Shown here: positions 1 through 62,288 of the stretch, piece by piece
How the letters are laid out: each line of letters opens with the position of its first letter
Position numbering within the stretch: the first letter of the stretch is position 1
NCBI GenBank assembly: GCA_023014335.1
Contig: JAECYW010000009.1
Coordinates: 1,240,001 to 1,304,000, forward strand
Direction: 5' to 3'
DNA: 64,000 nucleotides
From: Galerina marginata
Lineage: Eukaryota; Basidiomycota; Agaricomycetes; Agaricales; Galerinaceae
The notes under the pieces: model-generated
Database searches by the model: none
What the model was told of the DNA's origin: nothing
The model's input: only the letters and a program-made list of their open reading frames with translations
Translations under genes and position numbers: made by a program

Positions 1-1740
1 TCCCAAAGTTGTCTTGCTTCCAGAACTGGCTGCGAGGTCAAGAAGCCACACGATATATGCTGGATGGGCGGCGATGCTCTGTAAGTTAGGAAAGATGGGC
101 TCGCGGCAGTCAAAAGCGGACACGGTGATGGGAGTCCTGGATCCCATGGAAGGCAGCCCAACAAGGTTCAAAGTGACTTCCTGCAACTGCTCGTGATGAG
201 TTTTCAAAAATGCGGCTATAGCCTCGAATTCTGCAGACTGACTTCCCAGATCATCAAAATTTGTCATACAGAAATATTGGATCTCGAATTCGACCAAGTT
301 GGGGAGGTCGAGCGATGCTAGGAGGGGCGATGGTATGGGCTCCGTTTGGGGCCTGAACGAGAGGCTGACAAGTGTGTCTGCGCAAGCCGACGAGGTGAGA
401 AGAGATAGGGTCCAGTCATAGAAGGGGGGCACCAAGAGTATGTCTGAATGAATGCTCAGTGTCTCCAGCTTGAGATGTTTGTGTGTTGTGTTTGTCGGTG
501 ACACCGAATGCTGGGCGGAAAGCAATCTTTTCAACTCCTTTCCGCCGCTAACCAGCAATGTGGTGCATCCTTTGTCCAAAATCTTGTCCAGGAGACCGAC
601 AAACGCCCTCTCCAACACTTCAATGTTCACCTTCTCGTTCCAAAGGCTAGGATGTGTCCGGCGGAGGACCGAGCGTAACCACGTGTCCACAGACGTGAAA
701 TCGAGATTAACATATCGAACCTCTGGCACGCGAGAAATGATGGCCTGGAGGTTGGCTATTTCGTCGAGCGTTTGCCAGAGAGGGCCAGTCCTGGAGACTG
801 TGCTTGCGATGTCCGGAGCAGTCCGGGTCTGGAACAGACACGGGGGATCCACCTGAGGGTAGCCTATTTTGCATTCACATCCCGCATTAGTCCTGTTTTT
901 ACCGCGCCCCTAAAACCGTGTCAGAAAATTGTTATGTAATCTTCGGAGCTTCAATTATCGTCGCGTCGAGTGGACGCGACAATGCAGGTATTTGGCTATT
1001 GCTTAGAGGTAAAGTGTATACAGTTGTTTCAAAGAACCTTCTGTAAATTTTTTGTCATGCGGAGAGCAGTCGTTGTGGTTGCCTTCATTCTGCCCTGCAG
1101 ACCGTGCAAGTGGATTACATAATCGTCCTTTTTTGCTGCCTCCTTTACCTAGCTCATCCAAATCGCCTCCCTGGCCCTTGAAAATTTGCAGCAAGCTCTA
1201 TAGAAGTTATTAAATTGTTTTTATCTCAGAGTTTTGTTCGAAAACGCCCTCATTGTCAAGAAAAACGCGCGCGGCTGTATTTTCAAAGTCCGAAGATTAC
1301 ATAACAACTTTCTGACACGGTTTTGGGGGCGCGGTAAAAAACAGACTTCATATATCGTGATCCGAAGGGCACATCACATATATCGCAGTCTGGCTAGGAG
1401 AGACTAATCCCGCATTAAAAACCCAATTCACTGAATGTATCCGTTTCACGAATAGCGCCGTCCTGGTGGCATCCAGGATCTCCATAGGGGCCCGATTTGA
1501 TGAGAGGAAGCCCTTGGCCGGATTTCTGAAGGCTCTCCGTTTAAAGAAAGCCTGCGAAGCTATAGCATTAAACATCGTGCACGTCTGTGCCAGTGACACG
1601 AGCATGGCATTTGAGCACGACGAAAGGATGAGATAGATGAGTTCGAGAGGAAGTAAGAGAATCCCAGAAGTAGGAACAGGATAATGTATCGTTGTTCCTG
1701 GATTGTCAGTAGGCCGGACGCGTTTCTTTCGCTTCGTCAT
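1..1740 (-). pseudogene. F-box family protein, split by a transposon insertion; 3' end beyond the window
   Basis: Reading on the minus strand from 1740, the first ~108 codons match the start of the neighbouring intact paralogue: a basic N-terminus (MTKRKKR), then an F-box (LLLPLELIYLILSSCSNAM). The match breaks at 'FNAG' and resumes at about 889 with 'NAGCECKIG'. From there the frame is open without stops to position 1, through the shared 'LWQTLDEIANL' block and the leucine-rich region. The only visible lesion is the 528-bp insertion plus target duplication at 879-1417, which adds an in-frame stop at 1348. I tested GT-AG joins that would remove the insert and found none in frame. F-box proteins normally recruit substrates to SCF ubiquitin ligases; the substrate here is unknown. 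The lack of other lesions suggests recent inactivation. Confidence 0.8.
890..1406. mobile_element. Short non-autonomous inverted-repeat transposon inside the F-box gene
   Basis: The 11-bp sequence ATCCCGCATTA occurs at 879-889 and 1407-1417. In the uninterrupted paralogues this site is present once, so it is a target-site duplication. Inside, imperfect 58-bp inverted repeats lie at 890-947 and 1289-1346 (outer part GTCCTGTTTTTACCGCGCCC). A further 60 bp at 1347-1406 separates the right arm from the duplication and can form a hairpin around CGATATATGTGAT / ATCACGATATAT. No transposase is encoded. An 11-bp duplication fits Mutator-like elements (9-11 bp), but the class assignment is inference. 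Confidence 0.8.
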
Positions 1741-2152
1741 TTGAAGTAGTTTAGAACTGGGTGAAATAGGGAGATGTCCTCAATGTTCACAGAAATTCTG
1801 TACGAGTTCGGCGTTGGGCTTACGTTCGAACTTTGGAGCAAAGGGGAGTAGTGATGGCGGGGTTTGAATGCCACGTGGACGGATGAAGAGATCCACCTCA
1901 AAACTATTTATGGGAATCATTACCCTAGATAGAAGGACCTGCTAAAGAAACGCCAACCGTCTCATGAGTTCTAGGCGGAAGTGATCTCATAGTAATACAA
2001 GCCGCGCAAGTCGGGAGAGTTAGTAGAGGAGTCCATGGGAAGGCAACTTTGCATGCATTGGCAGATTCGAGATTTTACCTCTGCCAAATAACAATGAAAA
2101 CGCCAGTGTTCAATACATAGGACAATATCAGCACTGCAAACGCAACTGGGTT
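1741..2152. other. Intergenic gap between two F-box paralogues
   Basis: Promoter side of the broken F-box gene and 3' side of the next one. I see no gene or repeat in it. Confidence 0.5.
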
Positions 2153-4063
2153 CTACTGTTCAGCATTTTCCATACCAGCCCTGGCTCTGAACTCATCCAA
2201 ATTGACCGCTGGGTCACTCCGTAAAAAGCCCGTCCGGACCCATTTTACACCGATACACTTTTCCGCGACACGATCGATAAATTGGTCTTTATCGCCTAAA
2301 AAATCTCCCAGAAATACGAGTTCAACCTTTCGTAATTCGGATGGCGTTCCGGATCCCGTTTTTGGAGGCCTACCGCGTCGTCTTGGACCTGACAGATTCG
2401 ATGAAAAACCAGCATTAGAAATGAGAGCCAGCCAGTCAGGGATAACGTCGATTGCTTCCTCTCGAAGGGTAGCGGGAAATACGGTTGATATGGCGAGATT
2501 TCTAACACAGGTAAGCTGGGTGAGGATGGAAGGCGAAGTTTGTCCTTGAGCGGAAGGGAGATGGCTAGCGAACCACTCGGGTATGCCGTGCGGGCAGACA
2601 AACGTGAGATTAAGATCAATCGTCCTCCCTGGGACAAAGATCTTGTTCTTGGTTCTGGAGCGCGTATTGTATTTCCCCCAACTTCTGTAGCCGTTCTGCC
2701 AGTTAACCAAAGCTTCAAGAGCCTTGTTAAACGACGCATAATCAAAGTGTTGATGCCGGACTGAGGGTAGAGGTAAACAGTCCTCCGACTTGACGTCGAT
2801 TTTTGTCAGACTCCACAAAGTCAACCTGCGCTGTGAATGAGCTGCGAGGTCAAGAAGCCATGCAACGTATGCGGGATGGGCGGCGAAGCTCCCGAGTTTG
2901 GGCAGGATGGGCTTTTTGTGACCAAAAGCAGAAATGGCGGCAGAGTTCATCGGCGTCGAGGGAGGCAGCTCAGCACCATACAAAGAGACTACCTTCAACG
3001 AATCGTTGTGTGTGCCCAAAAATGCAGAGATGTCCTCAAATTTTGCAAAGGTGCTTTCTTGATCATAGGGAAGGGTTGTATGTGCCGCCTCCATCTCGAA
3101 CTCGACCAAGTTGGGAAGGTTGAGCGAGACGAGAAGCGAGGAGGGTAGGGACGTCATTTGCGACCGGATTAAGAGGCGCGTTAGGCTGTTTGCACAGGCT
3201 GAGGAGGTAAGAAGAGACAAAAGCCATTCGGAACATGGGGGCCTCAGGAGTATGTCGGAATGGACGCTCAGACTCTGCAGATTGAGGTATTTCCATTTCG
3301 AAGTTGAGGTCGACACCGAGTTCCTCGAATCCTCGCCAGGGAATAACTTTAGCAGCTGATCGCCGTTGTTAATGACCAACCTATGGCATCCACTATCCAC
3401 AATTTTGTCCAGAAGGTCTACAAATGCCGTCCACACATCCGGATCCAGGGCCGAACCTTTTAGTCCTGGGTGTGTCCAAGGGAGGACCATATTCAACCAC
3501 GAATCCACCCACATGAAGTTAAGGTTAACGTATCCGACGTCCGGAATGCGAGAAAAGATCGTCCGGAGGTTAGCTATTTCGTCGAATGTTCGCCAGAGGA
3601 TGCCACGGCTGGCAACGTTTGCAATGTCCTTGCTTGTCTGAGACGCTGATGGAAGAAACAGACATGCAGGATCCGCCTGAGGACCACCAATTTTGCATTC
3701 GCATCCCGCTTTGAAACTCCATTCTACGGAGCGTAGCTGCTTCACGAACAGCGCTATCCTGGTCGCATCCAGCATCTCAACTGGGGTCCGATCCGAACTC
3801 AGTCTTCCCATTGTGGGTGTACTGAACTCTCGCCCTCGCGTGAAGAAGGCCTGCAAAGCAATAGTGTTGAATGCCTTGCATGTCTGTGCCAGCGCCAGAA
3901 GCATAGCGTTCGAGCAGGACGCGAAGATGAGGAAGATGAGTTCCGGCGGAAGCAAGAGAACCCATGAGTCCTGTACTGGGAGCTTTGTTACTTTTCCTAC
4001 GTCGTTTTTACGCCGACCGGGTTTTCTTCGCTTCGTCATTTGAAGTAGAGCTGAGAGTGACAA
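2153..4063 (-). CDS. F-box and leucine-rich protein, intact, 636 aa
   Basis: Single uninterrupted exon. The protein starts with a basic stretch (KRRKPGRRK), then an F-box at about residues 34-75 with the family core LLPPELIFLIFASCSNAM and LAQTCKAFNTIALQ. The remaining ~550 residues carry irregular leucine-rich segments and two blocks shared by all paralogues here: GCECKI followed by LWRTFDEIANLRTIFSRI, and a C-terminal KDQFIDRVAEKCIGVKWV. It is probably a substrate adaptor of an SCF ubiquitin ligase. The upstream ATG at 4063 was kept because the paralogue at 16539 has a similar SALLQM leader; the internal M at the KRRK stretch is an alternative. The substrate cannot be inferred. Confidence 0.85.
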   Translation of the reverse strand: MSLSALLQMTKRRKPGRRKNDVGKVTKLPVQDSWVLLLPPELIFLIFASCSNAMLLALAQTCKAFNTIALQAFFTRGREFSTPTMGRLSSDRTPVEMLDATRIALFVKQLRSVEWSFKAGCECKIGGPQADPACLFLPSASQTSKDIANVASRGILWRTFDEIANLRTIFSRIPDVGYVNLNFMWVDSWLNMVLPWTHPGLKGSALDPDVWTAFVDLLDKIVDSGCHRLVINNGDQLLKLFPGEDSRNSVSTSTSKWKYLNLQSLSVHSDILLRPPCSEWLLSLLTSSACANSLTRLLIRSQMTSLPSSLLVSLNLPNLVEFEMEAAHTTLPYDQESTFAKFEDISAFLGTHNDSLKVVSLYGAELPPSTPMNSAAISAFGHKKPILPKLGSFAAHPAYVAWLLDLAAHSQRRLTLWSLTKIDVKSEDCLPLPSVRHQHFDYASFNKALEALVNWQNGYRSWGKYNTRSRTKNKIFVPGRTIDLNLTFVCPHGIPEWFASHLPSAQGQTSPSILTQLTCVRNLAISTVFPATLREEAIDVIPDWLALISNAGFSSNLSGPRRRGRPPKTGSGTPSELRKVELVFLGDFLGDKDQFIDRVAEKCIGVKWVRTGFLRSDPAVNLDEFRARAGMENAEQ

Positions 4064-4783
4064 GTTGACTGGTGAAGGTGAGAGTCAAAGAAAGAAATGT
4101 CTCAAAAGTCAAGACAGACAAACCATGCATAGTCGGCCCGCCCTTCCGTCGGCTCTTCCAGCAAACTGGTCAAACCGTTTTCTCCTCTCGTCCACCGAAT
4201 GCACGGGAGCATGTGCAGGCTTGTGCGCGTCAGTGTATCAGATACGAGTGTCGTAGAAGGCGGGTAGCACTACGAGACCTCGTCTATAAGTAGTAAATAC
4301 ATTGGAATCATAAATATTGGGATATTGGTTCACCGGCAACCTTTGCTCGACCATCAGCCAGCACACCTTCAAGGGAGAGAGGGCTTGGTGTAACAATTAA
4401 CCTTGACGCTGAGTAACCATCTGGATCCTCTGCAGAGAAATAAAAGAGGGACTTCGGGAGACTGCCAACAGATGTGACCGTCCGCGTGGAAGTGGCTAAA
4501 GAAACGCTGTTGAAGTAATAGTGCTAGGAACCTCTTCAATTACTGAAGGTATGAGTTGTCGGCAGACCGTCACGGTGAGTTTACGACACAGGTGCAATAA
4601 AAACAGCGAAGACTCTTCAACATTCATCTGAGGTCGAGGATTTTCTGTGTTCAATTGTTTGTCGGTCTCTTTAGCTGGTACAGACAGAACAGTAAGAAAA
4701 ATCTTGGTACAAGTAGAAGAAATTTACTACGCAAAAATCCGCCACCTTCCTCCATTTATTCAATTAGCCTTAGCAGCGCTTAT
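4064..4783. other. Intergenic region
   Basis: Promoter of the F-box gene on the left and 3' flank of the WW-domain gene on the right, both transcribed leftward. No other coding or repeat signal seen. Confidence 0.5.
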
Positions 4784-5844
4784 TTATGTACGCAACCAAG
4801 CCGTTTTCGCGATCTTCTTTTGCTTCTTCTGCTCCTTAAAGCGCTCCTACACAATAAAGTCAATAAAACGCAAAACAGCCGAAAAATAAACAAAAAAAAA
4901 ACCAACAATATCCTTCTTCGTGGGCCTCTTCCTCTTCTTCCCAGCTTCCTCGCCCGCTTCTCCTTCCTCACCCATAAGTCTCCCCCCGCGCCTCGCCAGA
5001 TCCTCCTCCCATTTTCCGACGTCAAAGTAGAATTCGCTCATGCGTTTTGCTCGCTCGTGCTCGGACAGGTGTCCGGGGGTGCGTGAGTTGGCAGGAGCGA
5101 ATTGGCCAGTGCGGGCGTTGAATTTGGCGGTAAATGTTGGAAGGTCTGGTGGATAAGAAGAGAAGTCAGTAACGGTGAATAGCAAGGGAAAATAGATGAG
5201 AAGTTCAAGCGAAGAACAGATTGAAAAGAGGCCGGAGGGGAATAACAAAGCCCCGGGAAACCGAACGGAAAGAAGTACGTACCGCCTGGACCAACCGTGC
5301 TGCCTGGGACAGAAGATGCGAGGAGAGAGGGGTCAAGATGCGCAAGGAGGGGGTCGATGCCTTGTGCGAGTGCCGCAGCCTGAAGTGCCGCGTGATGCGC
5401 TGCTGCAGCCGACATCGTCGGTTGTACCATCCCAGAGCTCGAGCCGGGGTCTCCGCCAGCTTCAGCCGCTACTGTATCATATGCTAAGCCTGAAGAAGCC
5501 GCGTCGGTGGTGGCAGTGGAAGGCGTGGTCGACGAGGAAGCTTCAGGTTGCAGGGGATTTGTCCATGTCGTTTCCTGGGTGGTTGGGTTGTAGAAGTAGT
5601 AAGCGTTGTATTGTGGTGCCCAGATCGCTTGCCATTGAGATGGAGCAGCTGCAGCTGCTGCAGCAGGCAATTCAGAGGCTCCCGGCGTCACGGACGAAGA
5701 AGAGGAGGGTTCAGGAGACTTTGAGGCAGAAGTAGATCCTGAGGCCGCTTCTTGCTGGTCTTCCTTATCTTGTCCGTCGACGTTCTCCTGTTTTTCCTTC
5801 TCAGGAGCCTCCACTATGTCCTCTGCTGTAGTTGCAGGCGCCAT
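4784..5844 (-). CDS. WW-domain nuclear protein, 287 aa, 3 exons
   Basis: Exons 5283-5844, 4907-5145 and 4784-4846; the introns begin GTACGT and GTTGGT, and all phases agree. Order: an acidic, Ser/Glu-rich N-terminus, an alanine run, one WW domain (WQAIWAPQYNAYYFYNP then TTWTNP; two signature Trp plus the aromatic YYFY), an Ala-rich middle, and a basic C-terminus with SEHERAKRMSEFYFD and a final ERFKEQKKQKKIAKTAW motif. WW domains bind proline-rich ligands. The lysine-rich tail suggests a nuclear, possibly RNA-processing role, but that is inference. The third exon (21 codons) follows a T-rich intron and would be missed by simple ORF reading. Confidence 0.8.
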
Positions 5845-54161: not shown

Positions 54162-54889
54162 TCAGTGATCATTAATGTGAAAGAGTCTCACTGCGTCCTG
54201 TGTATACTAAGTGGTGGTTCCCCATCGTTGTTCACAAGATTTCTTTGAATATGACCAGGTACCACATACAGCGTGCTGCAGACCGATAAATCTGTGCGAA
54301 CATTTGTTGGAGTACGTCAGCCTCTCATGAAGGGGTTTCTCATGATTGTACACACTTATCTACGTCCTCGATAAAGAAGTGTTTACAAGAATATCATAAT
54401 TTTGTCAGTCTCCTATGAAGGACTGCATGTTTGTTATTTTCGAATTCAGTGTACCTGCCCTGTCCTTGATACTCAATCCACTTCCCTTGCAAAACATATA
54501 TGGAGGGCTCATAAGTTATTTTCCAGTGTTTTTTGCTGTCATACGAGTATTATGTTTATGGCAGGTATTCTCTTGGCTATTTTCGCCTTTACTAATTTCT
54601 TTCACAGCTCTCCTATTTATTTACAGCAGGATTCTTACTACAAAATATTTAATGATTGCTTGAAAACTTGTTAGCTTTTTCATTAAATTATTTCTGGTCA
54701 CAATTTACTGGGGTTGAGGCGCGATGCATAAAAAAAAGTATGCCACAAGAAAAGGTTGGTGAAAGGGCTTGAAAAGGCACCCTCACGGACGCGCATATGT
54801 CACGTTTCTACAGGAAACTTCAATTACGTAAGCCAGCATGGCACTGCGAACATTTTCGTTTCCGTCCCTCAGATTTATCTTCAAACATG
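54162..54889. promoter_or_regulatory. Former NOP53 upstream region, now cut off by a transposon
   Basis: Left of the element and ending in the target copy AAACATG (54883-54889). It includes 3' flank of the membrane-protein gene and, nearest the element, what was presumably the native NOP53 promoter and 5' UTR. The ATG here is followed by element sequence. Confidence 0.6.
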
Positions 54890-55129
54890 GTAGTCTCGGA
54901 TACCCAGCCTCTTTGGGCGCCTTCCCAATTTGGGTCCCTTCCCTTCAGAGTCTGGGAACTGATCAACGGTCTCAAGGGCCTTATGCGTTCGGGCTGTTCG
55001 GGGTTTTTTTCGACTCTTGTTCAACATTTTCGGGACATTTAGTAGACACGTGATCACGCGGGAAACGCGGTGCGCGTCGCGCTGATTATTTCCCCTTCAA
55101 CCATTCACGTCGTTCTCGTCGTATCCCTT
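54890..55129 (+). repeat. Left terminal inverted repeat, 240 bp
   Basis: Exact reverse complement of 60281-60520, including a T7 run. Contains GC-rich CACGTGATCACGCGGGAAACGCG, with nested palindromes GATC and CACGTG(A). It ends 73 bp upstream of the DUF6589 start codon. Confidence 0.95.
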
Positions 55130-55202
55130 GCCTTGATAACTTTGTAGGCCTCCTTTAATTCCTTAATAAAGCTGTTTGCTTTGTCTAAACTCTCTTTGAC
55201 TC

Positions 55203-57969
55203 ATGGATCGTTACACATTTCGCCTCTTTGCACATGGGATACCCGAGGATGAAGATCATGAAGAACCCATTGCCGAAAGCTCTCCTCCTCGTTCACCATC
55301 TCCTATCCCAGCATCTGATGACTTTGAGGAGCCCTCCATCCTCCTTTCTTCAACTGAACTTTCTGATGACTCTGAAGATGATGATTTTTTTTATGTCCAG
55401 GCTCCCTTAAAACGACGGTCTCCGCTATCTGCTACACAGAAAGCCCGATTGGTCTTGCAATTCATGCGCGATACCCTCTCAAGGTTTTCTCTTCGGCAAT
55501 TTTCTCAGGCTGTCTTCACCTCGGACGATGGCGGGATCAAGAATTTTGCAAACATCTTTCTAGCTGACGGCGGACATCTGGAGATAATGGATTTGTGGTG
55601 GGATCTCTGCGGTGGATTGAGGGATCGTGAAATGACGGCGTGGGTAGTCAGGAAGGCAGCTTCTGCATGTGCAAGAGAGGCTAGTTGGCTCTCCAATCGT
55701 GCCTCTGAGGGTCCACATGAGGATGATGCAAAATTCCTTCGTGTGTCTTCGCAAAATGTGGATGTTACGATGCTAAATACATTTCGCATTCATGAGCTAC
55801 TTGAGCGATACGAGCGAGTTACCCCACACCTCCAACGCATTTTGAAGGCTATAATCAACAAGGATGAAAGGCCATTGAATCAGGGCAGTCGAAATCCTGA
55901 CGCAGTACGCAAAATCTTTATCTTTATCTAAAACTTTGGACTATATATTGATTGTTGCATGTTAGGGACGAACCTTAATCACTTCAATGGTTCTAAATCT
56001 GCGAAGCCAACGCCTCAACTATCATGCAGCAATGAACTCCTTGTTGTTCTGGGACAACCGTGTACCTAAGCGACTTGTTCAATTTTGCAATCACCTGGCT
56101 CTCACAACATCCTATCCGTTTCAAACCCGCGCAATAACTGCAATTAGCAAGAGTTCAGCACTTCTCGCAAAACAAGCTGCGAATGACCCAACCAAGATCA
56201 AAATGCTTCCGTATGACAATTTTAACTGGACGGCTCGGGCATGGGAATCAAGTGCACTCCATGGTTCCATCACCCACGATGAAGTGTCTGCCCTCCTCAT
56301 TATACTGCCAATACCTGCTGGTGGTCCTGATGCCATGCAAATAACATCAGTTGGTCGCTTTTCCAAGACTGAAAGGACTCGCCATGACCTCCCACCCGCT
56401 GAATCCCTGTCGGACATTCTTCCAAGTTCTGTAGACCAGCAGGCCTTCCGTGCCAATGCCATTATTCATGTTCAGAATATCTTAGCCCAAGATATCAAGG
56501 CATTTTCAGAGCATGGCCCATTTATCCCAGTCCTGGACGACCAAATGGCAATTAAACCGCAGAAAACAGAAGAGTATTACCTGCCTACATTTGACCAAGA
56601 ACAGGGATCAACCCGAGGAAATATGGTCGTTCTCGAGCATTACTTCGGAAAAATCCTCGACATTCCAAAGGAAACATTCGAGCACACAATGTTTACTGTG
56701 CTTGGTGATCGTTTGACTACTGTTCGCGATCGTGCCGCGCAAGACCAGCGGGCTGTTGATCGCTCCGAGCATCGCTTTGACCACTTATCAAGTTTTTCAA
56801 TGGTTAGCGGTTTAATGCATTTTTGTTTGAACTTCATTGAAGCTGAAGGGAAAAATGCATGGGGAACTTCTGCGACAGCTGATCCCATTAGTCTTTTGAC
56901 TCTTCGCGACATTTTGCCAAACCGGAAATCAAATATTAACCTTCAAAAGGTTGATTATTATGCATGGCTTCGATTCTTTGATGTTATCCTCCGAAGTCTA
57001 ACAATTACGGCTGCGGTAACTGCTCTCAAGGCCCTTTCTCCTGACGATTTATCGAACAAAGTCAAGACACTCACGGATCTACAAGAACTGGCAACAAAAG
57101 TCGTTGATAACTACCTTTTACCCTCACCAACGCGCCTCGAAGCTTTGAACCAGAAAATACTCCCAGGAAACACAAAATGCGGACATGCTGTTCTTCTTAT
57201 GCATGATCTTATGACCCTTCGAGAAATGCAGGACGCGATTAAGCATGGCCATCCTCAGCGTATTCAGCGCATGATCAAATTCTGGATGCCAATGTTTTAT
57301 GCTGCGGGGAGCTACAATTATGCAAACGAGTGCATGGAACTTCTCCACAATGTCATTCATGATTGGCCCAAGGACTATGCTCAGGTTGCGTTCAACGGAA
57401 TGCTCGTTAATCCAAGTGGAAAGCCTGGAGGATTCAAACCTACTGATATCCGGGTGGAACACCTCAACGACAGGATTAAAGAACGTGCTCATGGTTCAAA
57501 TGCAACACCTGACCACCTATCTAAAATTACTCCAGCAATGGGACATGTTTCGCAGTTCACTGACCAATTTTTTGCAGACCTAGATATTGAAAGGCAGAAT
57601 CAGCAACATAGCCACGTCTCACAACACAAGGACATTGAAATTGTTGTCAAGCACCTTCTCAAAGAAAAAATATTTGACTTTAGGTTTGACAAACTCTCCC
57701 AGCATCTATGGGTTGATTTGTATCGCACAGGGTGCATCCGATTAGCAGGAACGAGCAGCGGTGGTCATTACAATCACTTGAAGCGCCATATTCTCCGCCT
57801 TCGAACCCGACATACAACAGAGCAATCAAATGAATATGAGCTGGATCGCGAACTTTCGTCAGGCAGAGATTCACGGCGAACACAATTTACAATCAACGAG
57901 GAGATTGATGAATTTGGCGATATTATTCGTCATTCTACAGGAGAAGACACCGACGATGAAAGCGAATAA
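55203..57969 (+). CDS. DUF6589 protein, candidate transposase, 901 aa, 2 exons
   Basis: Exons 55203-55904 and 55966-57969 (phase 0, 61-bp intron). Residues 1-80 are acidic and Ser/Pro-rich. The DUF6589 region starts around TSMVLNLRSQRLNYHAAM. Typical family landmarks are YDNFNW (Asp318), VLGDRLTTVRDR (Asp482) followed by RSEHRFDHLSSFSMVSGLMH, and AAGSYNYANECMELLHNVI (Glu689). The order Asp-Asp-Glu in conserved settings resembles an RNase H-fold DDE nuclease; this is my inference, as DUF6589 has no assigned function that I know. The C-terminus is acidic (GEDTDDESE). Its location between long TIRs supports a transposase role. Confidence 0.85.
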
Positions 57970-58007
57970 GGTATCAAGAGTTTAAAGGACTGAACCATAA
58001 CCGTAAA

Positions 58008-60220
58008 TTAAAAGATTAGTATTGCCTCGCCATTATAAAGGATTGTCCGTTTACGCTTTTTTGGCCTTGAAACCGCCTGTGGTTCCATATCTCCGGCATG
58101 CTCAGGTTCCATCCACCGAACTTCTTGGTACATGTCGGGTTGATCAGGTGAGATAGAAGGAGTGCTGGTAGTATTGGGTTGAATGGTTTCCTGAGGGGGG
58201 AGCGGACCAAATAAGTCTGATAGAATTTGTTGGAGCGCATTGAAGAGGGGTGATGCAAGTTCTCGTTCATGAGGAATGTGAGTGAAGGAAAGGAGAGTTT
58301 CGAGGTTGGAGATTTGGTGAGCACGCTTGGTTATTTCACGTAAATCGGAGTCGCTAACAAGTGAATCTGGTCCGTAGCTGGGCCAAGTTTGCATCCACTC
58401 GTCTTTCCATATCTTGAAACGCCAATCTGTCAGGGCCTTCAAGATTTTTTCCTTCTCTTTGTCGGTGGTTACTGGACGAGACTGCGGCTTTTCTTGCGGG
58501 TCCTCAATTCCGGGGTTTTCCATAATCCACTCGAGGTCCTGATCAAGGCAAAGGCTGGGGTTGCAGTTTGAACAGCGGGTATGACAGCAGGTTATAAGAT
58601 TGCCCGCGTCATCAAAATGTGGTGGGTTTTCAAGGTGAGTGTCAACCGTGTACTCCAGACATTCTGACGTGTGAATGAGGTCCAGAAGTCCGGGATCCTC
58701 GAAGTTGGGCGATGTGACGGAAAGCTGACCATCATCACCTGTCATAGACTTTTCAACGAGAATAACCCCCACTGCCTTGCTGCCTTTTCGACGAGCTCCT
58801 CTCCCACGACGTTGTTCCCATTTCACGAGCGTAAGATCTCGACAGCGGTACTGCACAACCAACTGTACGTTTGGGAAGTCCATGCCTGCTCCTATTTTGT
58901 CTGAGCCAAGCAGAATTTTGGTCTTTCCGGAGATGAAATCATTGGTGCTTAGCTTTTGGTGTGGTTCTGATAGTCCGGCATGGAGAATGTCGATGAGGTG
59001 CGGAGGAAGCTTCAACGAACCTAAACGAGCGTGAAACCACCAAAACATGTCAGTCAACATATCTAGGTTGTCCGAGTAGATCAAAGTTTGTTTGATTGAA
59101 TCCTCGGACGCGTTCCACGGAAGGGTGAAGGTTAAATCCTGAAAAGAATTTGCGTCGTGTTGCATCTGAGTAATGATTGTCGAAAGTTCTGGGCGAAAGT
59201 TGCCAAGATTAATGAGTCGGTAGTCTGCCTTCAAGCTTGCGTGGATTTCAATGGATTTTCGATATGAAGCTGGAAGGGTGGCAGAAAGCGGAATTAATGG
59301 AATATCATTGCCTATAATTTTTCGCAGTACATGAAGACGGGTGTATCCAGGACGCCACGAGACACTTTCATGAATAGTATGTGCTTCGTCGATATAAATT
59401 GCCGAAAGTTGCGCGCGAAACGATTCCGAGTGCAGAACACAAGCGAATGACGGGGTCTCGAGCATTTCAACACAGGTGTAAACCACGTGCATCGAGCCGC
59501 CTTTTGCGATCTTTTCGAGGTCTGCAGGATCCGAGGCACCTGAATGAATAAACGAGCATTCTATCACAGAGTTACGGTGGCTGATCAGAGAATATTCAGT
59601 AAGAAAGCAAGCAATTATTTTGTAAATTCGCACCGTTCTTCTCCTTGGTATCCCAACGACGTGAAGGGGATGATGACCAAAGATATGCCCGTCTTCTGAG
59701 CAAGCAAAGGCAGAACCCATAAGAGAGACTTCCCAGCACCAGTCGGAGCTATCACACACAAATCTCCTGCCCGAGAAATGGTGAAGTTTGCAGCCTCGAT
59801 CTGATAATCCCTCAATTGCTGTCCTTCCTTCAAAATGCCATGTTTGAGAGCCCGTTGATTCCATTCCTCTGCGGAAAGAGGTTCCATTGAATTGAGTCGC
59901 TTGAACCTTTCGAATGCATAGGCTTTTTGCCTAGGATGGCCGGGGTTGTTGAGAGAATAAGGCTTAAAGGAAGGTGTCTTCGGTTTTACGGCATATCCGT
60001 TCTGGAAGCGGGTGCGGTTCTTCTTGTCAGCAAAAGGTAGTCTCGGCGTAGAGAGAGCGGTTCCAGGGGTAGAAATTAATTGATATGCTGTAGAGTTGGA
60101 GGTTGCTGAAGGAATTGTAGGCCTTGTGGGTGCGGGTGTCACTGGGGATGAAGTCCGATTTTCATCATTGAGCCTTCGTCGCTTATGAGGTGAAAAAGGT
60201 GTGGGAGTTGACTGAGACAT
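58008..60220 (-). CDS. RecQ-like DEAH helicase carried by the transposon, 719 aa, 2 exons
   Basis: Exons 59634-60220 and 58008-59580, 53-bp intron, phase 2. After a basic Ser/Thr/Pro-rich N-terminus (~1-110) come LRDYQIEA, Walker A CVIAPTGAGKSLLWVLPLL (~156-174), a DEAH box IYIDEAHTIHE (~257-267), motif III LSATLPA, and the second RecA lobe with LLGSDKIGAGMDFPNVQLVV and RRGRGARRKG (motifs V-VI). A Cys cluster (CCHTRCSNCNPSLC) near residue ~580 resembles the zinc region of RecQ enzymes. No HRDC domain is seen. It is likely a 3'-5' DNA helicase that assists transposition or repair of the donor site (inference). Confidence 0.88.
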
Positions 60221-60280
60221 AGATTAACATCGATAGAATGGGTTGTAGATAATTATAAGAAATATAGCATTGAAAAAATG

Positions 60281-60520
60281 AAGGGATACGACGAGAACGA
60301 CGTGAATGGTTGAAGGGGAAATAATCAGCGCGACGCGCACCGCGTTTCCCGCGTGATCACGTGTCTACTAAATGTCCCGAAAATGTTGAACAAGAGTCGA
60401 AAAAAACCCCGAACAGCCCGAACGCATAAGGCCCTTGAGACCGTTGATCAGTTCCCAGACTCTGAAGGGAAGGGACCCAAATTGGGAAGGCGCCCAAAGA
60501 GGCTGGGTATCCGAGACTAC
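60281..60520 (-). repeat. Right terminal inverted repeat, 240 bp
   Basis: Exact partner of 54890-55129. Its outer end is 4 bp from the NOP53 ATG. It lies 60 bp upstream of the helicase start and so faces two genes. Confidence 0.95.
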
Positions 60521-60527
60521 AAACATG
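60521..60527. repeat. Target-site duplication, right copy, containing the NOP53 start codon
   Basis: AAACATG, identical to 54883-54889. The last three bases are the NOP53 ATG. Confidence 0.85.
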
Positions 60528-62288
60528 GCTGCGTCAAAAAGCAGTAAATCGAGTTCGATCGTTTCGAGAAAGGCTTCCAGTTCATCTAATACCGGCGTAA
60601 AATCCAAGCCAACCCGGTCCGCAATAGGTGCTCCTTCGCAGCTCAACCAATCAAGCAGGAAAGGAAAACGTGCTTGGAGGAAAAATGTTGATCTTGGAGA
60701 CGTTGAGGAGACGTTGGAAGAGATAAGGGCAGAGGAGAGGGTTACCGGGTACATTTCTTTCTATTCCTTGCGTTTCTATTACCTGATTTCAACCAATGAA
60801 GCACGGCGCTACACAAGATGCAAGACACCGATTTGTTCCAGATCGACACCAAAGGCGATGATAAAAGTGTGTTGCCTCTTTTTTGATACTTTTGAATTTT
60901 TTTCTGAACAATGTCTCCTACCTACAACCTCTAGTTAGACATACCCTGCCAAGATACTCAGCGGCTCAGTTAACTTCCACCAAAATCCTTGCGCAACGCT
61001 CAGCCGTGCCTGCCGTGTTCTCTCGCATCACGTCAAGCAGTAGTTTGAACAAACGAAAAGCCTCGTTGAGCCGTGAGGAGAAAGAACGCTTGATGCGAAT
61101 TGCCAAGCGGCCACGGAAAGGACCGTTTAACAGCATTTTGGACCCGTCGGAATACGCTGCTGGGAGTGGAACTGTGGAACTTAGCGATGCTGTGAAGCAG
61201 AGTGGGACGTACGACCCTTGGGCGGAGGAGGAAGCCGTAGTGGAAGTCAAGGATGGTATGGAAACTGTTAGCAAGAAGACGATCAAGGTCAGCTTCTTTT
61301 GCGACTGTCTTTTACTGCCTTCTGCGACGTCAGCTGATGATATATTCAGCCTCCAGCACTGAAACGAACAAGAGATCTGATAGAAATACCTGCAATCGTC
61401 GAACCTCATCAAGGAACATCATACAATCCTGCAGTTGAGGCGCATCAGGAACTCCTAGAAAAAGCGGCCTTAATAGAGGCAAAACGGATGAGAGATGCTG
61501 AGAAGCTCGCGGAGGTAAAAACGAAGATGGAGGGCGCGAGGTTGACGCAAGAGGAGTACGATATCGCCGTTGCTGCTGGGATGAGCGTGCAATCAGTACA
61601 GGATGACAAGGACGATGAGAATGCTGCCAGTGAGGGGGAAGAGGAGCATGTACCCTCTGTTAAAAAAGTTCCTGAGAGGAAGACGAAAGCGCAACGGAAT
61701 AGAGCTACACGTGTGCTCGCTGAGGTTAGCTGGTCCTATTTCGTATTTGTGACGGGTTGTTAACGTCGTGATTCCAACAGAAACGGGCTCTCGCTGAAAA
61801 AGCACATCGAAAACGTTTGCTGGCCTCAATAAGCGATGTCAAGACGCTTCGGCGGACAACAGCGCAGGCTATGTCGACACAGGAACAAGAACGCGAGGAG
61901 AGGCGTATCGCTCTTGTGGAAAAACTCAAAAAGCATGGGGTGGCTGGACAGAAGCTTGGGAAACATAAAGTCCCTGAAGGTCGTGTGGATGTTCAGATCG
62001 GTGAAGATCTCAGTGAGAGCTTGAGAGGATTGAAGGTATGAAGAAGCAAATATTTCGTCTTTAAACACTACTCGAACTACTTTTCTTTCATAGCCCGAAG
62101 GCAGCCTCTTCCACGACCGATTCCAGAGTTTGCAGCAACGAGCGCTGATCGAACCTAGAGTCCGCGTATTGTACGTTCCAGTTTTCTGTTCTCGTGTTTC
62201 ACTTTTTAATCGTCCTTTCTGCAGGCCTAAGAAACGAAGGAACAGGATGATCGAGTATGAGAAGCACGCTTGGAAGCGATTCGAGTAG
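60525..62288 (+). CDS. NOP53: Ribosome biogenesis protein NOP53, 470 aa, 7 exons
   Basis: Exons 60525-60748, 60802-60866, 60935-61287, 61350-61724, 61781-62035, 62094-62170 and 62225-62288, all phases agree. Family features: SSRKGKRAWRKNVDLGDVEE, RAEERVTG, LHKMQDTDLFQIDTKGDD near the N-terminus; a lysine/glutamate-rich coiled middle (RKTKAQRNRATRVLAE); and the C-terminal PKKRRNRMIEYEKHAWKRFE signature of Nop53/GLTSCR2. It acts in the nucleolus in 60S assembly and recruits the exosome helicase Mtr4 for 7S rRNA processing. The coding sequence is intact, but its start codon abuts a transposon, so its promoter has changed. Confidence 0.93.

Follow-up and report, generated by a model that had tools for sequence, protein, structure and literature searches.

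Academ transposons bear terminal inverted repeats (TIRs), and a lineage of the superfamily named AcademH was reportedly described by Kojima in 2020 (Mob DNA 11:15). In the available text of later papers, Academ is credited with a DDD/E transposase (PMC9587614), AcademH is the helicase-encoding lineage with target-site duplications of 9 or 10 bp, where AcademX, which bears a nuclease, has 3-4 bp (PMC10045372), and AcademH elements carry DEAD and Helicase_C domains and occur at low copy number in Basidiomycota, Ascomycota and Mucoromycota (PMC10799480). Putative non-autonomous Academ insertions are called widespread in Marasmius oreades in the accessible part of a further report (PMC8290104). 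KolobokH, which belongs to Kolobok, is described as restricted to fungi and as encoding a RecQ helicase downstream of the transposase domain, Kolobok elements having TTAA-specific 4-bp duplications and 5'-RR...YY-3' termini (PMC9587614, in the portion available). Here we describe an element in a 64,000-nucleotide stretch of the Galerina marginata genome (the window; assembly GCA_023014335.1, contig JAECYW010000009.1, positions 1,240,001 to 1,304,000), which is very probably an AcademH-type TIR DNA transposon, young and autonomous, with a DUF6589 DDE transposase and an accessory RecQ-like helicase. The AcademH label would follow from the anatomy of the element rather than from transposase homology, AcademH being known to us through its descriptions in citing papers.

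Positions 54891-60519 of the window are a real, complete DNA transposon that was recently active, bounded as follows.

54891..60519, no strand assigned: complete autonomous DNA transposon, 5629 bp, defined by its inverted repeats and by two further copies with 0 differences
54891..55129, + strand: left TIR, 239 bp, beginning TAGTCTCGG
60281..60519, - strand: right TIR, 239 bp, the same sequence as the left TIR
54882..54890, + strand: left target-site duplication, CAAACATGG, 9 bp
60520..60528, + strand: right target-site duplication, CAAACATGG, which includes the ATG of NOP53

Direct comparison of the arms 54890-55129 and 60281-60520 gave 100% complementarity over 240 nt, bearing out the identity that a sequence-only reading of the window had noted. 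We set the edge of the element 1 base inward, however, because the copy on contig C2 matches bases 2-5630 only, and the true TIR is thus 239 bp, with the termini TAGTCTCGG...CCGAGACTA. The 7-bp duplication of the earlier reading was discarded for the same reason: one base of the duplication had been counted as TIR, and the actual repeat is 2 bp longer.

A search of the genome (69.3 Mb in 43 contigs) returned two more full copies, at C2:824548-830176 and C16:559847-565476, with 0 differences in 5629 bp across all three. Three identical copies at three sites with three different duplications led us to reject a chance inverted repeat or a segmental duplication, and confirmed the proposal of a DNA transposon. 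The same genome holds a 1017-bp deletion derivative at C12:2716618, which has kept both ends and lost the middle, and three miniatures with little beyond both termini (63 bp at C34:3319004, 74 bp at C23:3619710 and 56 bp at C12:3946009; L018, L019 and L020), the last of which looks palindromic by eye. Together with the identical full copies, these derivatives argue for recent movement. The miniatures, two of which have clean 9-bp duplications and the third 4 extra bases, could be tiny non-autonomous copies or aborted products of excision and repair. Among the seven complete insertions, five have 9-bp duplications (CAAACATGG, CATCCCAGC, GAAGAAAGG, CTGCCCGCA and CCTTATCGC), one has an 8-bp duplication (ACAGGCAC), and one has a 9-bp repeat (CTCCTCGAG) with four additional bases ahead of the left terminus; repeats of 8 bp or more were found in 10 of 200,000 random window-position pairs. 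No empty site is present in this assembly, in which each 1-kb flank matches once. Contig C1 begins with a TIR end.

Between the TIRs lie two genes that are intact and arranged tail-to-tail, as the sequence-only reading had it; each has one intron, and 38 nt separate the stop codons. The splice sites of both are provisional, being our choice among the open frames. The first gene comprises the following features, in which residues are numbered on the exon-2 reading and on the spliced protein.

55203..55904, + strand: DUF6589 gene exon 1, encoding the N-terminal 234 aa
55905..55965, + strand: DUF6589 gene intron, GT...TAG, picked from open frames
55966..57969, + strand: DUF6589 gene exon 2, with the whole PF20231 match; spliced protein of 901 aa
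56215..56217, + strand: D83 (D318 spliced), candidate first catalytic acid, at the end of strand 1
56707..56709, + strand: D247 (D482 spliced), candidate second catalytic acid, right after a strand (GD)
57457..57459, + strand: E497 (E732 spliced), candidate third catalytic acid, in the helix past the helical insertion

Exon 2 matches PF20231 (DUF6589) with 323.1 bits (E 2.9e-96), exceeding the gathering cut-off of 27, while the 234 aa of exon 1 had no Pfam match up to E 1. The predicted structure has an RNase-H-type fold, the best solved matches being Hermes, P element, ISCth4, Transib and RAG1, and suggests that DUF6589 is a DDE/RNase-H-fold transposase and most likely the nuclease of the element. 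A profile built from 60 DUF6589 proteins had 0 matches among PDB sequences up to E 1. The transposases of hAT (Hermes) and of the P element are 8-10% identical to the DUF6589 protein; those two elements are not known to encode a helicase and make 8-bp duplications.

We propose D318, D482 and E732 as the putative catalytic residues from the modelled fold and from conservation counted in two alignments, of 60 and 27 rows. Asp occupies the D83 column in 57 rows of the first and 26 of the second, and the D247 column in 59 and 26, the remainder being gaps in both columns; E497 is E in 59 of 60 rows (with one gap) and in all 27. The position of E497 is compatible with the ranges over which Hermes, P element and RAG1 align, given what we take to be their catalytic residues. 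E457, another alternative, was rejected as the third acid, since its column reads 22 E, 4 D and 1 gap in the 27 rows, against 27 of 27 for E497. E419, which like E497 is invariant (E in 60 of 60 and 27 of 27 rows), is an alternative; it was set aside on fold position only, which is a matter of judgement.

The second gene lies on the opposite strand.

59634..60220, - strand: helicase gene exon 1, with Walker A APTGAGKS
59581..59633, - strand: helicase gene intron, picked from open frames
58008..59580, - strand: helicase gene exon 2, with DEAH, SATLP and Helicase_C; spliced protein of 719 aa

The spliced helicase matches the Pfam families DEAD (E 1.8e-14) and Helicase_C (E 9.8e-11). The two top NCBIfam models are both for RecQ, at E 1.7e-22 and 2.2e-21, and are matched well under their cut-offs; for recQ_fam (TIGR00614) it scores 76.2 bits and does not reach the curated cut-off of 219.8. 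In the PDB, chains of helicase Q5 come closest (E 6e-9; query, the frame holding exon 2), and no RecQ_Zn_bind, RQC or HRDC match was found up to E 1. Judged by these profiles, the protein is a RecQ-like SF2 helicase and not an orthodox RecQ. It has the SF2 RecQ-type motor in common with cellular and telomere-linked RecQ helicases and differs from them in falling, among listed relatives, in a close group of its own.

The two genes belong together well beyond the three full copies. In the genome, 45 PF20231 matches merged into 30 loci and 49 RecQ-like matches into 34, and a RecQ-like match lies within 6 kb of 15 of the 30 DUF6589 loci, with the two genes convergent in all 15. Random placement gave 0.2 linked loci on average and never more than 3 over 2000 trials; this control takes the 15 loci as independent, among them the three copies without differences and what looks like one twin pair. 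All 13 DUF6589 loci that span at least 1089 bp are helicase-linked, against 2 of 17 shorter ones, the threshold having been set post hoc. The remaining 19 of the 34 RecQ-like loci have no DUF6589 link; among such matches are three near contig starts (C38:10295, C39:9035 and C39:19612), which we would guess are possibly telomere-linked RecQ helicases.

Five linked loci were scanned for inverted termini bounded by exact 8-10-bp repeats, and four diverged loci were found to bear TIRs and 8-9-bp duplications. L031 has the termini TAGTCTCGG and a 9-bp duplication (score 54), L032 the termini TAGTCTCGT and a 9-bp duplication (score 18), and L033 the termini TAGTCTCGT and an 8-bp duplication (score 12), the control maximum being 8 both for 100 shuffles and for 11 window tiles. 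A laxer scan of L035 gave TAGACCGGT/TAGGCTCGT with a 9-bp duplication (score 13; the controls reached at most 8 over 300 shuffles and 5 over 24 unrelated tiles), a row that ranked fourth, three higher-scoring palindromic rows having been set aside. Taken together with the element's own insertions, 11 are resolved, of which eight have 9-bp duplications, two have 8 bp, and one has a 9-bp repeat with 4 extra nt. At L034 (C43:2280000-2288500), a DUF6589-helicase locus with nested subterminal inverted repeats, the scan did not locate the ends and gave only palindromic repeats within longer inverted repeats, which were not counted for a duplication; an apparent tandem twin of this locus lies 11.6 kb away at C43:2293830.

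A second DUF6589 subfamily, whose members are 16-20% identical to the window protein, is represented by L036 (C18:330500-338500), where the gene faces a diverged DEVH helicase (DEAD E 3.1e-9; Helicase_C E 7.6e-5, slightly under the cut-off). L037 is a DUF6589 fragment with no helicase seen among its four frames of at least 120 aa. The scan found neither TIRs nor a duplication at L036 or L037.

The pairing recurs in other genomes. The exon-2 protein (666 aa) has 155 relatives at E<=0.001, with PF20231 in all 120 listed, and the second subfamily has 286 matches, again with 120 listed; the named relatives among the matches listed are presumably all from Agaricomycetes. No animal relative is among these 120 of 155 and 120 of 286 matches, which is no proof of absence. 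Every listed relative is named only as a hypothetical, uncharacterized, predicted or DUF6589 protein. For the helicase there are 316 relatives at E<=0.001, and among the 120 listed 73 form the close group (E up to 6.7e-84), beyond which the other RecQ rows begin at 6.1e-15. As a proxy for a shared contig, 37 of the 73 close helicases, against 0 of the 47 other listed rows, lie on a contig equal in size to one with a DUF6589 match. The proxy is supported by adjoining locus numbers for DUF6589 and helicase in Arthromyces matolae (H0H93_015956/015957) and Candolleomyces aberdarensis (EST38_g13408/13409).

Evidence at the sequence level thus covers the boundaries, TIRs, duplications, open reading frames, recent copying and a deep linkage of the two genes. 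The suggestion that DUF6589 and helicase form one module, with DUF6589 as its most likely nuclease, was upheld by the 15 of 15 convergent pairs and the predicted DDE fold. The sequence-only reading would also have taken as support many DUF6589 genes beside this helicase within like TIRs and 7-8-bp duplications; the linkage and the TIRs of the diverged loci agree with this, and the duplications proved to be 8-9 bp.

In its placement the element resembles AcademH in a helicase with DEAD and Helicase_C domains, a 9-bp duplication, a basidiomycete host and a low copy number, and it has the TIRs (239 bp, 100% identical) and the predicted DDE transposase that the superfamily predicts. No clear difference was seen in the features that can be compared. 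It is therefore most likely a member of AcademH, and its kind has probably been described already, so that the family which the earlier reading called possibly undescribed very probably has a place in a known superfamily. Weighing against this assignment, two of the 11 resolved insertions have 8-bp duplications, outside the published range of 9-10.

DUF6589 elements could instead be a separate superfamily that converged on a helicase and 9-bp duplications, which we consider improbable. Such a reading draws on an AcademH label given without a transposase sequence link to Academ, and on the literature searched, in which we found no publication on DUF6589, PF20231 or IPR046496 and nothing in print on its function. 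It draws also on the presumed restriction of the listed named relatives to Agaricomycetes; Academ, to go by the title of Kojima (2020), occurs in animals too. Against it, every published AcademH property accessible to us is found here (DEAD/Helicase_C helicase, 9-bp duplication, Basidiomycota), and it is unlikely that the same fungi hold another lineage with so unusual a combination. Similarly unlikely is a stronger form, in which DUF6589 is an Agaricomycetes DDE superfamily apart from Academ with an obligatory, always convergent RecQ-like helicase acting within the transposition reaction. KolobokH, a Kolobok transposase with a RecQ helicase, shares with our element a fungal host and a RecQ-like helicase (here below the RecQ cut-offs) next to a DDE transposase, and its existence shows that RecQ helicases are less foreign to such transposons than had been assumed. 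As an identity for the element it is scarcely credible: the duplications are of 8-9 bp and none is TTAA (CAAACATGG, CATCCCAGC, ACAGGCAC and the others all fail the TTAA 4-bp rule), the termini are TA...TA, and the helicase is encoded on the opposite strand rather than downstream of the transposase domain.

Under the AcademH assignment, the DUF6589 transposase, whose RNase-H core carries a large helical insertion, would bind and pair both TIRs and excise the element, presumably by cut-and-paste chemistry. Insertion would follow at staggered target cuts 9 bp apart, or 8 in some insertions, and host repair of these cuts would give rise to the target-site duplication. The RecQ-like helicase would be an accessory, most likely unwinding transposon ends or strand-transfer products, or else assisting gap fill and repair. 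Many DDE transposons move without a helicase, and half of the DUF6589 loci (15 of 30) lack a helicase match; it is accordingly conceivable, if doubtful, that the helicase is a protective or regulatory passenger and that DUF6589 alone transposes, which would be compatible with the AcademH reading. The 15 unlinked loci are shorter pieces, however, all 13 loci of at least 1089 bp have a convergent helicase, and the deep second subfamily retains one at L036. Conservation of this kind suggests that the helicase has a role in the element's life, though that role need not be in the chemistry. A suggestion that the helicase sets the long duplication is made in the available text of PMC10045372.

In the window, the element went into NOP53 (PF07767, ribosome biogenesis; window 60520-62035) at its start codon. 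The right CAAACATGG copy has retained the ATG and the open frame, and 5.6 kb now lie between the gene and its former upstream region. A search of the assembly gave NOP53 matches at this locus only. Its expression may now depend on a promoter within the TIR, a partner nucleus may cover for the gene, or the gene may be impaired.

Measured against the literature searched, the connection of Pfam DUF6589 with this transposase is the only part that is apparently new. PF20231 would thereby gain a likely function; related clusters number at least 155 for one of its two subfamilies and at least 286 for the other, sets that may overlap. With its three identical copies, the element is an intact and probably active helicase-encoding transposon, on which the role of the helicase and the length of the duplication could be studied. 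If DUF6589 is a transposase, mushroom gene counts and claims of an 'expanded family' could be corrected.
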